Shown here: positions 10,003 through 33,447 of the stretch, in pieces
Position numbering within the stretch: the first letter of the stretch is position 1
Layout: every line of letters begins with the position of its first letter
Origin: an uncultured bacterium
Lineage (GTDB): Bacteria; Patescibacteriota; Minisyncoccia; UBA6257; GWB1-50-10
Direction: 5' to 3'
Length of the DNA stretch: 33,447 bases
Assembly (NCBI GenBank): GCA_903847915.1
Contig: CAINEW010000007.1
Coordinates: 1 to 33,447, forward strand
The notes under the pieces: model-generated
Told to the model about the DNA's origin: nothing
Seen by the model: only the letters and a program-made list of their open reading frames with translations
Database searches by the model: none
Translations under genes and position numbers: made by a program

Positions 10003-10727
10003 GGCACTAGACTAGCAAAATCATGCTAAAGTCTAGAATATGCCAGTAAAATACACACGATTCAAGAAAAACAAGGTTAATAAATTATTAAGGTGTTTTT
10101 GTACTTATTTAGGGGCAACACAAACAGCACAATTAACAGGTATCAATCGCAACACGGTGAATAATTGGTATCAAACATTCCGTAAAGCAATTGCTGAATT
10201 CCAAGAAACGCAAGTGAAGCAGTCATCAGGATCCTTTGAACTTGATAAATCATATTTTGGAGGCACAAGAAAGAAGCTCCATGCGAAAGATCGTAGAAAG
10301 CGAGGTCGAGGAGCAGAAAACAAAATACCGGTCTTTGGTATCAAAAAAAGAGATGATGGTTCTGTCTATACCAAAATCATAGAAAACGCTTCAAAACACA
10401 CGCTATTTCCTATCATCAAGGAGTTAGTCAACAAACATGATTCCATCATCTATACGGACAAATTCAGTACGTATGACGGGCTCGTGTTTGATGGCTACAA
10501 GCATTTTCGTATCAATCATTCCAAACAATATTCCAATCGAAAAGGAAATCATATCAACGGCATCGAAAACTTCTGGGCATTTTCAAAACAACGACTCTCA
10601 AAATTTCATGGACTTTCACGAAAAAACTTCTATTATCATCTCAAAGAATGTGAATTTCGCTACAACAAGAAACATGACATGATGAAGATATTACAGAGAG
10701 TTATTCACAGTTTGCTAGTCTAGTGCC
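10003..10727 (+). mobile_element. IS1595-family (ISXO2-like) insertion sequence
   Basis: Transposase ORF bounded by perfect 17-bp terminal inverted repeats GGCACTAGACTAGCAAA (10003-10019) / TTTGCTAGTCTAGTGCC (10711-10727); no clear target site duplication. Confidence 0.92.
10040..10723 (+). CDS. IS1595 family transposase (ISXO2-like DDE)
   Basis: HTH TGINRNTVNNWYQTFRKAI; ELDKSYFGGTRKK; IIYTDKFSTYDGL; GIENFWAFSKQRLSKFHGLSRKNFYYHLKECEFRYN; stop codon lies inside the right IR. Confidence 0.92.
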   Translation: MPVKYTRFKKNKVNKLLRCFCTYLGATQTAQLTGINRNTVNNWYQTFRKAIAEFQETQVKQSSGSFELDKSYFGGTRKKLHAKDRRKRGRGAENKIPVFGIKKRDDGSVYTKIIENASKHTLFPIIKELVNKHDSIIYTDKFSTYDGLVFDGYKHFRINHSKQYSNRKGNHINGIENFWAFSKQRLSKFHGLSRKNFYYHLKECEFRYNKKHDMMKILQRVIHSLLV

Positions 10728-10813
10728 AAAATATTTTTCCCTGTATTTGCAAAATCAATCGCAAGACAATGTCCAACAATACCAGCCCCAACAATAATTA
10801 AGTCATACTGCAT
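10715..10813 (-). pseudogene. N-terminal remnant of an FAD/NAD(P)-binding oxidoreductase (Glf-like?) truncated at the IS end
   Basis: Reads MQYDLIIVGAGIVGHCLAIDFANTGKNI then enters the IS inverted repeat (LALD-stop); GxGxxG Rossmann start; no continuation beyond the IS. Confidence 0.65.
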
Positions 10814-12090: not shown

Positions 12091-12714
12091 TTATTTTTTA
12101 TCCTTTAAGTTTGGCATATTTGAATCTAAAAACGTTTTTATCTTAACATCGTCCGGCCATAAAGAGAATATCTTTTTTGCAATTAAAAGGGCATTCTCTA
12201 AATCATTATGAGAACGATAGAGGTCAAATACATTATAAAGCACAGGAGGAAGATCAGGTCCAAGCGTAAGAGCTTTCCGATAATATCCTTCAACCTTCTG
12301 ATAATCCTCTTGTCTGTGGTAAGTGCTCCAAAGAACACGATACATCTCACCAAGCGTCAACAAATGACGCACATTATTTTTATCCATCACATCTTCAATA
12401 TAACGAATAAGCTCTCTCCGTACTGCCTCTTGTTGGTTTTCTTGAGAAACAATTCGAGCGATATCATTACTCAAAAATTTTGCAACTTCTTCGTCACCCA
12501 CAGGAGAATAAAACAGAAGCGCATAATTAAATGTTTGTTCAAAATCTTGAATACTATGAACATTCCGCGCTTGCACAGTACGAAGTGCGGTAATATATCG
12601 TTGAGATTTTTTAAACGGTAAATACGATCCAAAATAAAGTGATAAAAGCGTCCCTATAATGAGTACTATTGAGCTAAAGAATAAAATAATATGCTTGAAA
12701 GTGAATGAGGACAT
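12091..12714 (-). CDS. TM + TPR protein; probable detached C-terminal part of an O-antigen ligase
   Basis: Start at MSSFTFKHIILFFSSIVLIIGTLLSLYFG preferred over 12885 (upstream residues overlap another gene); TPR-like YQKVEGYYRKALTLGPDLPPVLYNVFDLYRSHNDLENALLIAKKIFSLWPDD. Confidence 0.6.
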   Translation of the reverse strand: MSSFTFKHIILFFSSIVLIIGTLLSLYFGSYLPFKKSQRYITALRTVQARNVHSIQDFEQTFNYALLFYSPVGDEEVAKFLSNDIARIVSQENQQEAVRRELIRYIEDVMDKNNVRHLLTLGEMYRVLWSTYHRQEDYQKVEGYYRKALTLGPDLPPVLYNVFDLYRSHNDLENALLIAKKIFSLWPDDVKIKTFLDSNMPNLKDKK

Positions 12715-12727
12715 AATATAATAAATA

Positions 12728-13186
12728 ACAAACGACAAATCATAAATAACTATCAAAATGAAAATTACTTGCTCTTTTCTATAATTGCAGAAAATATTTT
12801 CTTTAACTCGGTCGCCTCTTTTGATAAAATACTGTTTTCTAATGAAATATTCTCTTTGTTCGTCGCGCCAATAAGCTCCAACCAATATACTGTTTCTTTT
12901 GCCTCTTTTCTCGAGATTTTGATTCGCATCACAAAATCTTTCTTCCCAAGAGCTTCATTGGCCTCAATATAATTTGCGCCAACAGATGCTGACGACCGAA
13001 TCACTTGCTTACTATATTCTATATTAGAAATTGTTTTTGGCAATTTCTTGCAAAACATTGCCACATTTTTTGCAAATGTGTAACTTCTTTTTTCTAAGTC
13101 ATATTCTTTTTTTTGTTCAATCATTTTTCTGTTTTTTGAAATATTGTGTATTGGTTATTGGAACTTACTTATTATTTGAAGTTTGT
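12728..13186. repeat. Imperfect inverted repeat bracketing the four-helix-bundle gene
   Basis: 12728-12745 ACAAACGACAAATCATAA versus reverse complement of 13169-13186 ACAAACTTCAAATAATAA: 15/18 identical. Confidence 0.6.
12765..13124 (-). CDS. Four-helix-bundle protein (S23/IVS-encoded, avd-like family)
   Basis: RSYTFAKNVAMFCKKLPKTISNIEYSKQVIRSSASVGANYIEANEALGKKDFVMRIKISRKEAKETVYWLELI is the signature of the TIGR02436-type family. Confidence 0.85.
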   Translation of the reverse strand: MIEQKKEYDLEKRSYTFAKNVAMFCKKLPKTISNIEYSKQVIRSSASVGANYIEANEALGKKDFVMRIKISRKEAKETVYWLELIGATNKENISLENSILSKEATELKKIFSAIIEKSK

Positions 13187-14547
13187 AATTTGAAGTGTGG
13201 CGCTGAAAAAAGATATGTGGCAAATGCAAGGAATAAAAACACGTTAGTATAAATAGGAAGCACATCAAATAACACAAGACCCTGGATAAGATAAGCTACA
13301 GGAATACAAAGAATAATTGCTTTTACTGTTGACGAATATGAGCTAAAAACAGACGAAATATGATGATGACGAAAGAATAAAAAGAAGAAAACGCCAAACA
13401 TACTCAAAAAACTTAATAGCCCTAAAATACCCGTTTCTGCAAGAGAATCAAAAATAATGCTATGTGCTCTATCAAACCACGCACCAAACCCTTCGCTTGG
13501 CTTGAAATAAGCGGTATTAAAATGTGCGTCAAATACATGAATAAAATTCTCCGGTCCCCATCCAAGAAGTGGTCGCTCTTTGAATCCATCAATAGCACTC
13601 TTCCACATAATCGCACGATGCCCAAATGTTTCTGTCGTAAATGATATATCAAAAAGACGCGCCATAGGTAATTTTTGAATAAAAACACTTTGTTTGAAAT
13701 AAATTCCCGTACCAAAGACGATTAAAACAGCTGCAAGAGCACCCAAAATCCATTTACGAGCCATAGAATGACGAAATGCCATATAGAACCCACTCACACA
13801 CAAAGCGCCAATAAGACCTAATAAAGCCCCACGCGTTGCAGCAAAAATAAACACTGTAAGCAACCCACCTGAAAGAATATAAAGAATAATTGGCACAAAA
13901 GAAAACAACTTGTTGCGATAGCGCGAAAGAATAATATATCCCGCATAAAAAAGTGAAAATAAGATATATGCTGCCACATACGCAGAATTACCAATAGAAC
14001 CCTGAAAACGGAATCCTTGATCAGTAAATGGTGCACCAATAAATCCTCTTGTACCTAGTCCAGCAAAAACTCCATATACACTCATAAATATGGCACCAAA
14101 AAACACAAATCCAAATATCTTTCTCCAATCCTTTTCTTCTTGAAAAAGATAAGTAAGTAAGAGGAAAAATATATATAGATGAATCACCTGAATACCCCCC
14201 TCTCCACGTTCAAAATTAGACCAAAAAGAAAAATGGGGGTCTACTCCAAAAAAACATGCCAAGAGAAACATGAGCGTAAATACACTCACCGCAATTACAA
14301 GAGGATGACGAAACAGTATCAAAAAACGATCGGTAATAACCGACAATTCTTTAGAAAACATCACGCCACATAAAAACGCGATAAGCGCCAAATCAATACA
14401 TACACGAAACCACACATACTTCCCCACAATAAAAGGAAAAAGGGTTGAAGGTGTCACAATCGCCACACTTAATATTGACGCAAATAGGAAAAACCTAGAA
14501 AGCTTAAAATAATTAAATGACATTTGAATACTTAAGAGTATACCCAT
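13165..14547 (-). CDS. O-antigen ligase/polymerase (Wzy_C domain) membrane protein
   Basis: Multi-TM; RGALLGLIGALCVSG; KSAIDGFKERPLLGWGPENFIHVFDAHF...AHSIIFDSLAETGILGLLSFL. Confidence 0.85.
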   Translation of the reverse strand: MGILLSIQMSFNYFKLSRFFLFASILSVAIVTPSTLFPFIVGKYVWFRVCIDLALIAFLCGVMFSKELSVITDRFLILFRHPLVIAVSVFTLMFLLACFFGVDPHFSFWSNFERGEGGIQVIHLYIFFLLLTYLFQEEKDWRKIFGFVFFGAIFMSVYGVFAGLGTRGFIGAPFTDQGFRFQGSIGNSAYVAAYILFSLFYAGYIILSRYRNKLFSFVPIILYILSGGLLTVFIFAATRGALLGLIGALCVSGFYMAFRHSMARKWILGALAAVLIVFGTGIYFKQSVFIQKLPMARLFDISFTTETFGHRAIMWKSAIDGFKERPLLGWGPENFIHVFDAHFNTAYFKPSEGFGAWFDRAHSIIFDSLAETGILGLLSFLSMFGVFFFLFFRHHHISSVFSSYSSTVKAIILCIPVAYLIQGLVLFDVLPIYTNVFLFLAFATYLFSAPHFKLQTSNNK

Positions 14548-18069: not shown

Positions 18070-18091
18070 AATTATTTTGTATTTTGTATTT

Positions 18092-18367
18092 TCACCCTCC
18101 CAACTTTTGAAACAATTCGCTTAAATAATTTTTTAAAACACGTTTGAGATAATTCTTACCCCATCCGGTTTTTAAAAATTTTTCTCTTGCAAATGCGTCT
18201 TGTTGATTTAAATAAATCTCTACATAAACTGTTTTAAACGGTGCTCTGTGTTTTGTAGAATACGATCTTCCGTTATTATGTTCTTTAAATCTCCGTTCAA
18301 AATTATTGGTACATCCTACATAGAAATCCCCATCTTTTTGACTACGCAAAACATACACATAATGCAT
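18092..18367 (-). CDS. GIY-YIG (URI-type) nuclease family protein
   Basis: MHYVYVLRSQKDGDFYVGCTNNFERRFKEHNNGRSYSTKHRAPFKTVYVE; typical single-domain GIY-YIG. Confidence 0.92.
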   Translation of the reverse strand: MHYVYVLRSQKDGDFYVGCTNNFERRFKEHNNGRSYSTKHRAPFKTVYVEIYLNQQDAFAREKFLKTGWGKNYLKRVLKNYLSELFQKLGG

Positions 18368-18388
18368 TATTTCAAAAGTTGGGAGGGT
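18094..18388. repeat. Perfect 19-bp inverted repeat flanking the GIY-YIG gene
   Basis: 18094-18112 ACCCTCCCAACTTTTGAAA and 18370-18388 TTTCAAAAGTTGGGAGGGT. Confidence 0.95.
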
Positions 18389-18399
18389 AAATTTTGACT

Positions 18400-18667: not shown

Positions 18668-18928
18668 ACTAGTAAATAAGAAGAGTACGAAACAAGGCAC
18701 AAATAGTATTTATACACCATTTGCCCTTTGCTCCCTGCCCTTTACCAAATTGCCTAGCCTCACACTAAGCACTGTTATGTATATCCTTTCTTGTTAAAGA
18801 GTGCAAGAAAACACTCTTCCCCTAGTTATCCACAGCCACAAAAGCTAATTATTGACTGCCTTTTTGGCTTATATAGATATAACGATAAACTGACCTATTA
18901 GTTACATAGAGCACTCACTCTTTCACGT

Positions 18929-25502: not shown

Positions 25503-25716
25503 ATTTATAGAAAATAATTTTGCTTGCCTTTCCGTAGCTACAAAGTAGCGAAGGAGGGAATTTTGATTGAATGTACGAATTAATCTATTGGGCCATTCTT
25601 TTATTGATTCAAAATTAAAAATTGGTTATTGTATTTCACGTTGTAATTTATTTGGCATTTGAATTTTGAGATTTGATATTTTACTTTATCTCATATTTCA
25701 ATACCACATTGACCTT

Positions 25717-26487
25717 TTATTTAATTTCGTACCGCACAGTGAGATTTACACTCACATCTTGTGAGCCCGCTTCAATCGTAGGCGATGACTTCATATCCCC
25801 TCCCGCAACACTAAATGATTCTGCCATTGCATAAGGACGAGGAAAGTTACCGGACTCTTGAATCCCTAAAATTTTTCCCAAACGAAAATGACCTGCGCGT
25901 GCAAGCGATTCCGCCTTTTCTTGTGCTTTCTGCATTGCTTCATTACGCGCCTCCATTTCTGAAGTCGTCGGATCATCAATGGTAAACGCAAGCGAAGAAA
26001 CCGTATTCACTCCCTTCTCCACCACGCCCGCAAGCACATCCCCCACAAGAGTAAAGTCCCTTACCTTCACTCGCACCGTATTCGTCACGGTATACCCCAC
26101 GATTTTTGGAGGAGGACATACAGATCCACCACTAAAACCGCAATTCGCATATTCATAGCGAGGAGATACTTGATACCCTGTCGTCATAATATCTTTCGCG
26201 TCAATCCTTTTTTCTTTCAAAAACGCGATGGCGTTGTTCGTACGTGTCGTATTTTCTTTTTGTAAGAGTGCGAGATTCACCCCGCCTTCATTCACCACAC
26301 TAAAACTAAACTCCGCCACATCAGGAATGGCGACTACCTTCCCCTCCCCGCTCACTTCAAAACTCCGAAACGACGCCGGCGACTGTGCATTGCTATACGA
26401 GCTCGCAAAACTCCACACAGAGAACCCTCCTATAACCAACATAAAAATCAACGCCCACCCTACATAATTTTTTATTTTTTCTGACAT
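25717..26487 (-). CDS. SIMPL domain-containing protein (DUF541)
   Basis: FEVSGEGKVVAIPDVAEFSFSVVNEG...VSPRYEY...GYTVTNTVRVKVRDFTLVGDVL; ALAVNLTVRYE-type end. Confidence 0.85.
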   Translation of the reverse strand: MSEKIKNYVGWALIFMLVIGGFSVWSFASSYSNAQSPASFRSFEVSGEGKVVAIPDVAEFSFSVVNEGGVNLALLQKENTTRTNNAIAFLKEKRIDAKDIMTTGYQVSPRYEYANCGFSGGSVCPPPKIVGYTVTNTVRVKVRDFTLVGDVLAGVVEKGVNTVSSLAFTIDDPTTSEMEARNEAMQKAQEKAESLARAGHFRLGKILGIQESGNFPRPYAMAESFSVAGGDMKSSPTIEAGSQDVSVNLTVRYEIK

Positions 26488-33367: not shown

Positions 33368-33415
33368 ATTTCGTCGTCTTATTCTTCGTTATAAGTTATT
33401 AGTTAAGGGTTATTT

Positions 33416-33447
33416 TGGTCGGGCTGCTGGGAATTGAACCCAGTCTA
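33416..33447 (-). tRNA. 3' part of a tRNA truncated by window edge (identity undetermined)
   Basis: Minus strand CTGGGTTCAATTCCCAGCAGCCCGACCA: T-arm, acceptor 3' half and encoded CCA. Confidence 0.8.

Follow-up and report, generated by a model that had tools for sequence, protein, structure and literature searches.

S23 genes are known mainly from insertions inside ribosomal RNA. The 33,447-nt contig CAINEW010000007.1 of an uncultured patescibacterium (assembly GCA_903847915.1), the whole of which is the window referred to below, carries such a gene between two protein-coding genes for sugar polymers, in the minus-strand order O-antigen ligase, S23, transmembrane-TPR (TM-TPR). The locus raises the question of what kind of element this S23 gene belongs to, and whether its arrival split a gene, as the initial annotation had proposed. 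Our results indicate that it is probably a mobile S23 cassette, that is, an element of the intervening-sequence (IVS) type outside rRNA, which was inserted at a junction of co-directional genes, at the 3' end of the ligase gene. The element is most likely defined by its DNA ends.

An S23 gene between two inverted arms of ~7-nt units

The product of the S23 gene matched the PF05635 profile with 57.8 bits, above the cut-off of 33.8, and its nearest solved structure was 2RLD, which has five chains. A search of the window's own genome for further copies, as the initial annotation had recommended, returned this one S23 gene only. Like the open reading frame (ORF) of an rRNA IVS, the gene is enclosed by terminal complementary sequences. 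These had first been described as an imperfect 18-bp inverted repeat (12728-12745 / 13169-13186, 15/18). That repeat is real, but it is the core of longer arms, which pair without gaps over 34 nt with 25 of 34 positions complementary (p 0.0006 in a comparison with 5000 dinucleotide shuffles; p 0.0026 when gaps are allowed). The proposal of an S23-type cassette with inverted-repeat ends in protein-coding DNA outside rRNA was borne out.

Both arms consist of tandem ~7-nt units in intergenic DNA, resembling in this respect the short tandemly repeated repetitive (STRR) sequences. The units are TTCAAAT, TACAAAC, TTCAAAT and AATAAGT in one arm and TTATTTA, TGATTTG, TCGTTTG and TTATTTA in the other. 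The joint p for the 7-nt periodicity of both arms was 0.0004, and in an unbiased scan of all 33 kb the left arm was the strongest 7-periodic stretch of the window. As had been noticed earlier, the end of the cassette encodes the C-terminus of the ligase, and the TPR gene starts a few bases past the right arm (Table 1). The cassette does not lie inside a 23S rRNA gene; it adjoins two protein genes, and neither the window nor 20 related loci contained rRNA. No transposase gene was found within the element, and no Rfam family matched it.

Table 1. Features of the window, beginning with the S23 cassette and its neighbours.
Feature	Coordinates	Strand	Details
S23 cassette, arm to arm	12723..13191	(-)	~469 bp, outer ends approximate; inverted arms and heptad periodicity
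S23 / 23S-rRNA-intervening-sequence protein gene, 119 aa	12765..13124	(-)	PF05635 E 1.4e-15
Left (5') arm AAATTACAAACTTCAAATAATAAGTAAGTTCCAA, ~7-nt units	13158..13191	(-)	lag-7 autocorrelation p 0.006
Right (3') arm TTGATAGTTATTTATGATTTGTCGTTTGTTATTT, ~7-nt units	12723..12756	(-)	lag-7 autocorrelation p 0.013
Last 8 codons of ligase (KLQTSNNK) and stop, from left arm	13165..13191	(-)	sequence reading and arm coordinates
O-antigen ligase (Wzy_C) gene, full length	13165..14547	(-)	PF04932 E 2.5e-18
TM-TPR gene, full length	12091..12714	(-)	3' of ligase gene in 29/29 relatives
Solitary arm-like stretch CAAATCTCAAAATTCAAATGCCAAATAAATTACAA..., no S23 gene	25593..25686	(-)	~30 nt past stop of gene 25717-26487
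Small GIY-YIG nuclease-like gene	18092-18367	(-)	arms 18091-18116 / 18366-18391
IS1595/ISXO2-type element, ~727 bp	10003-10729	(+)	17-bp perfect inverted repeats GGCACTAGACTAGCAAA

The same anatomy recurs around S23 genes of many phyla

When GTDB contigs were scanned at the protein level, 546 of 585 candidate stretches were confirmed as relatives, and the best 80 of the 546 span some 27 phylum-level groups. PF05635 matches were found in 166 of 249 relatives, nearly all of the same order. Arm statistics were calculated for 130 S23 genes beyond the window, comprising a first set of 80 loci and a second, divergent set of 50; the sets were picked by S23 similarity and include related loci rather than being a random sample, and gene neighbours were called from long ORFs rather than from annotation. 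These genes share the anatomy of the window cassette, in which one S23 gene lies between two inverted arms of ~7-nt units. The dN/dS values of ~0.04-0.2 for S23 pairs with measurable dS show that the protein is kept by purifying selection.

In the first set, the flanks carry CAAATNN, CGAAATN or CTAAATN units, and in 64 of 78 loci the left and right flanks share one unit type. The terminal inverted repeat (TIR) score was 24.7 for a locus's own arms, compared to 19.1 for arms swapped between loci and 13.3 for shuffles. In the second set, the words are unrelated between cassettes and equal within one (ATAGCTC, CGTATAC, GGGGTAT, CGTGAAG and TATTAAG are examples), with scores of 18.1 for own, 9.5 for swapped and 9.3 for shuffled arms. 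The TIR score of 128 S23 genes was 21.1, as compared to 10.3 for 200 other genes of the same loci, and 70% of the S23 genes exceeded the 95th percentile of these controls. For either set, the autocorrelation of both arms peaked at lags 7, 14 and 21, the lag-7 value being 0.10-0.14 in arms, -0.01 in shuffles and ~0.01 in control intergenic DNA. Arm similarity also tracked the identity of the S23 proteins (Mantel r 0.32 and 0.40, 0/500 permutations). Such a correlation would be expected if arms and gene travel together, although shared descent alone would also give it.

Arm length varies among loci. At L217, a ~45-nt unit occurs about four times in the right arm and once in the left, suggesting that arms expand by unit duplication, and at L202 the left and right arms show a parallel lengthening with respect to L200. 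Phage records contained hardly any relatives (2 records). We also considered whether the heptads might be three-frame stop cassettes, as 7 is coprime with 3 and many of the words hold TAA, TAG or TGA. This idea was not supported generally: the test gave 281 in sense, 288 in antisense and 365 in shuffles for the larger set, and a weak result for the second set (183 sense, 102 antisense, 133 shuffles).

Filled, empty and hairpin-only junctions

Equivalent units are sense-oriented at operon junctions of many phyla. Between co-directional genes, S23 was sense in 63 cases and antisense in 1 in the first set, and sense in 42 and antisense in 0 in the second, making 105 sense cases out of 106. Ordinary genes of these loci gave 70 sense and 13 antisense cases, and the first set differed from this background with a Fisher p of 0.004.

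Related species carry filled, empty and hairpin-only alleles of the same junction. When the cassette at one Flavobacterium junction (L079) was aligned together with its neighbours to related species, the two flanks were only 8 nt apart in the latter; the insertion point is in the last codons or the stop of the upstream gene. A second Flavobacterium junction lies between an upstream gene ending in ...TKGKPLRN-stop and a thiolase start. It is bare, with a few bases, in seven species (L220-L226); it contains an S23 cassette that begins at the stop codon in 17 inspected loci, with a TATTAAG-like word in all except L203, which holds a different cassette; and it contains mini-hairpins of other words in L218, L219 and L229. 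Presence and absence at orthologous sites, combined with terminal inverted repeats, is the pattern by which miniature inverted-repeat transposable elements (MITEs) and insertion sequences are recognised, and the family displays it in Flavobacterium. For the window cassette, presence and absence were seen at the level of neighbouring proteins only, which suggests that it too was inserted. In L201, a TATTAAG mini-hairpin lies after the stop of the upstream gene and before the S23 gene, an arrangement that could result from the fusion of a hairpin-only copy with a cassette of the same word. An 11-nt BLAST overlap at one junction, considered as a target-site duplication, can be put down to AT-rich similarity and is no clear duplication.

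Similar units, with ~80% identity, are also found at unrelated loci in different phyla. For example, a 472-nt unit is 80% identical between Brocadia and a deltaproteobacterium, the loci compared being otherwise without similarity. The S23 tree is poorly resolved, and individual transfers are not provable from it.

Selection on the arms at the RNA or DNA level

The arms could instead represent an RNA stem that RNase III removes from the polycistronic transcript, in the way that the S23 IVS is removed from 23S rRNA. The Coxiella IVS is 428 nt long and has terminal inverted repeats, an S23 ORF and tandem heptamers before the S23 start (PMC4990558), and the cassettes described here share this anatomy. 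The sense orientation of the S23 genes and the ability of the window RNA to fold with its arms paired (z -2.5) are also consistent with this possibility. Maintenance of the arms as an RNA stem would be expected to leave more G.U than A.C mismatches. Over 6278 aligned positions from 106 arm pairs, no such excess was found (296 vs 281, p 0.56), and the two arms of the window pair imperfectly and through AT-rich sequence. We therefore rejected RNA-stem selection on the arms and consider excision from the mRNA unlikely; the processed stem that the initial annotation had anticipated is not indicated by these mismatches, though the RNA can fold so. Selection on the arms looks DNA-symmetric, which would mean either that double-stranded ends are recognised or that one arm is copied from the other. 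Cassette RNA may nevertheless be processed by RNase III in the manner of the Coxiella IVS (PMC4990558).

Other elements and arm-like stretches in the window

It is also conceivable, if rather improbable, that the cassette is a MITE-like passenger with S23 as accessory cargo, its ends being the target of a transposase from another locus (IS1595-type, Y1/REP or a GIY-YIG partner). Hairpin-only copies behave like MITEs, and both an IS1595-type element and a GIY-YIG gene with flanking inverted repeats are present in the window. However, the ends of both are unlike heptad arms, the arm words vary widely yet stay paired, unlike fixed transposase sites, and S23 is under strong purifying selection. 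The GIY-YIG arms form a 26-nt inverted repeat (92%), one arm overlapping the 3' end of the gene itself, and the unit looks like a second kind of one-gene cassette. At the IS1595/ISXO2-type element, a target duplication was not clear.

Solo arms were sought within the 33-kb window. The solitary arm-like stretch listed in Table 1 scored 34 against S23 arms, compared to a maximum of 26 in 60 shuffles and 23.5 in other segments of the window; it may be a relic or a hairpin-only copy. Intergenic 7-nt periodicity with no S23 gene nearby was also observed at 33381-33436 and 18701-18756.

The cassette lies at a gene junction

According to the initial annotation, the cassette had interrupted one fused ligase-TPR gene. 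Ligase homologues were present in 118 of 149 relatives, and we read the junctions in the 29 nearest loci. In all 29, ligase and TPR genes were directly adjacent and an S23 gene of the window type was absent. In 27 of them, ligase and TPR were two separate ORFs, which usually overlapped or were spaced by a few nt and for the most part differed in frame, and in two (L006 and L015) they formed a single fused ORF; in L003, one stop lies between in-frame ligase and TPR ORFs. The relatives align to the window ligase up to residues ~448-460, and both window proteins are full length relative to their homologues. The fused ORFs of two relatives, and the single frame that ligase and TPR share across the window cassette, would fit a split gene, but the 27 relatives with two ORFs, mostly in different frames, contradict it. 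Thus, the comparison with relatives that had been suggested as a check told against the split, as separate genes occur without the cassette, and we rejected this explanation as very unlikely. Because 27 of 29 relatives have two ORFs and the window proteins are full length, the cassette occupies the junction of two genes, right at the end of the ligase ORF. This junction has been hit more than once, since a different S23 gene is found there in L013 (genome G001) and short non-coding hairpins with 7-nt periodicity in L014 and L019.

Finally, the single S23 copy of this genome would suit a resident gene of the host operon with chance AT-rich repeats or terminators as arms, but the arm and heptad statistics, the empty sites, the spread over many phyla and the presence and absence at one junction in related species make this highly improbable.

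Discussion

We propose that the S23 cassette is mobile as a unit of DNA and is recognised through its ends. An S23 oligomer would bind the array of heptads, possibly in phase with their repeat, and would pair the two arms, bringing the cassette ends together; a Xanthomonas S23 homologue is a five-subunit ring, as cited in PMC4990558. Cutting and joining would be performed by a host or element enzyme acting in trans. S23 would be made from the mRNA of the host operon, which would favour sense insertions, the left arm would supply the new stop codon of the ligase at insertion, and hairpin-only copies would be non-autonomous derivatives. A resident reverse transcriptase was considered as the partner and rejected, as neither the window's own genome nor 43 of the 89 genomes with strong S23 hits contain one; the association of reverse transcriptase with strong S23 hits (odds ratio 2.1, p 0.03) is possibly confounded by Avd-like hits and genome size.

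Several points weigh against a mobile cassette. Transposition of the cassette and the binding of its arms by S23 are putative, and the S23 family is not known to include a nuclease or recombinase. No clear target-site duplication was found at the cassette junctions, and for the window cassette, whose nearest relatives have ~55% protein identity, no empty site was found at the DNA level. Inheritance of the Flavobacterium cassettes is partly vertical, so that some empty sites may be losses, and the orientation and position of S23 could reflect selection alone. In addition, antisense S23 copies lie between cas2 and cas1 on cyanobacterial plasmids (L231, Anabaena; L234, Nostoc).

The cassettes resemble several known systems. 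With the rRNA IVSs that encode S23p (Leptospira, Coxiella), they share a length of ~430-470 nt, one S23 gene and terminal inverted repeats, but they lie at protein-coding operon junctions, lack an RNA-level arm signature and use very many heptad words. Geneless, TIR-like short hairpins at the same insertion points (L198, L218, L219, L229, L014, L019) recall MITEs and hairpins of the REPIN type. In contrast to these, the full S23 copies carry a conserved non-transposase gene and end in heptad arrays of variable word, and no target-site duplication was seen. Avd of diversity-generating retroelements is a homologous four-helix bundle (PMC10053308), but no RVT_1 match was found in the whole genome of the window, and no reverse transcriptase in those 43 of the 89 genomes.

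STRR sequences are the heptanucleotide repeats of cyanobacteria, considered here as a class rather than from the published list. Like the cassette arms, they and the TAACTGA heptamers are tandem intergenic 7-nt direct repeats of sporadic, horizontal-looking distribution. TAACTGA arrays have been reported in Beggiatoaceae, Cyanobacteria and Bacteroidetes, with "no mechanism evident" for their spread (MacGregor, PMC4679880), and that report ties the repeats to neither a gene nor inverted arms. On Nostoc, Planktothrix and Aulosira plasmids, we found heptanucleotide arrays as the inverted arms of four-helix-bundle genes, one example having (GTAATTC)n arms with a 36/36 match.

23S_rRNA_IVP genes have been reported in cas operons and a CRISPR-associated function was proposed for them (PMC3936711). 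There, too, S23 is lodged between operon genes, e.g. cmr3 and cmr2, but unlike that proposal the present pattern suggests that S23 genes inside cas operons are cassette insertions and not CRISPR components. In L235, DISARM drmD and a restriction enzyme gene flank an S23 gene. We found no description of such a cassette in the open-access papers searched, and priority is uncertain.

S23 proteins are still described as lacking a known function (PMC4990558). Mobile S23 cassettes across many phyla provide a concrete hypothesis, namely that S23 recognises and binds the ends of its own cassette. Both the heptamer arrays (PMC4679880) and the S23 genes in cas operons (PMC3936711) are covered by the cassette model, which may explain the heptanucleotide repeats of cyanobacteria and Bacteroidetes and offers one origin for such intergenic repeats. 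More tentatively, and as a view that we hold to be somewhat short of probable, S23 proteins may be the self-recognition proteins of phylum-crossing cassettes with inverted heptad-array ends, in which the word would be lineage-specific and one arm copied from the other. Leftover arrays would then be the source of the heptanucleotide repeats of cyanobacteria, Bacteroidetes and sulfur bacteria, and the rRNA IVSs would be one special landing place of these cassettes.
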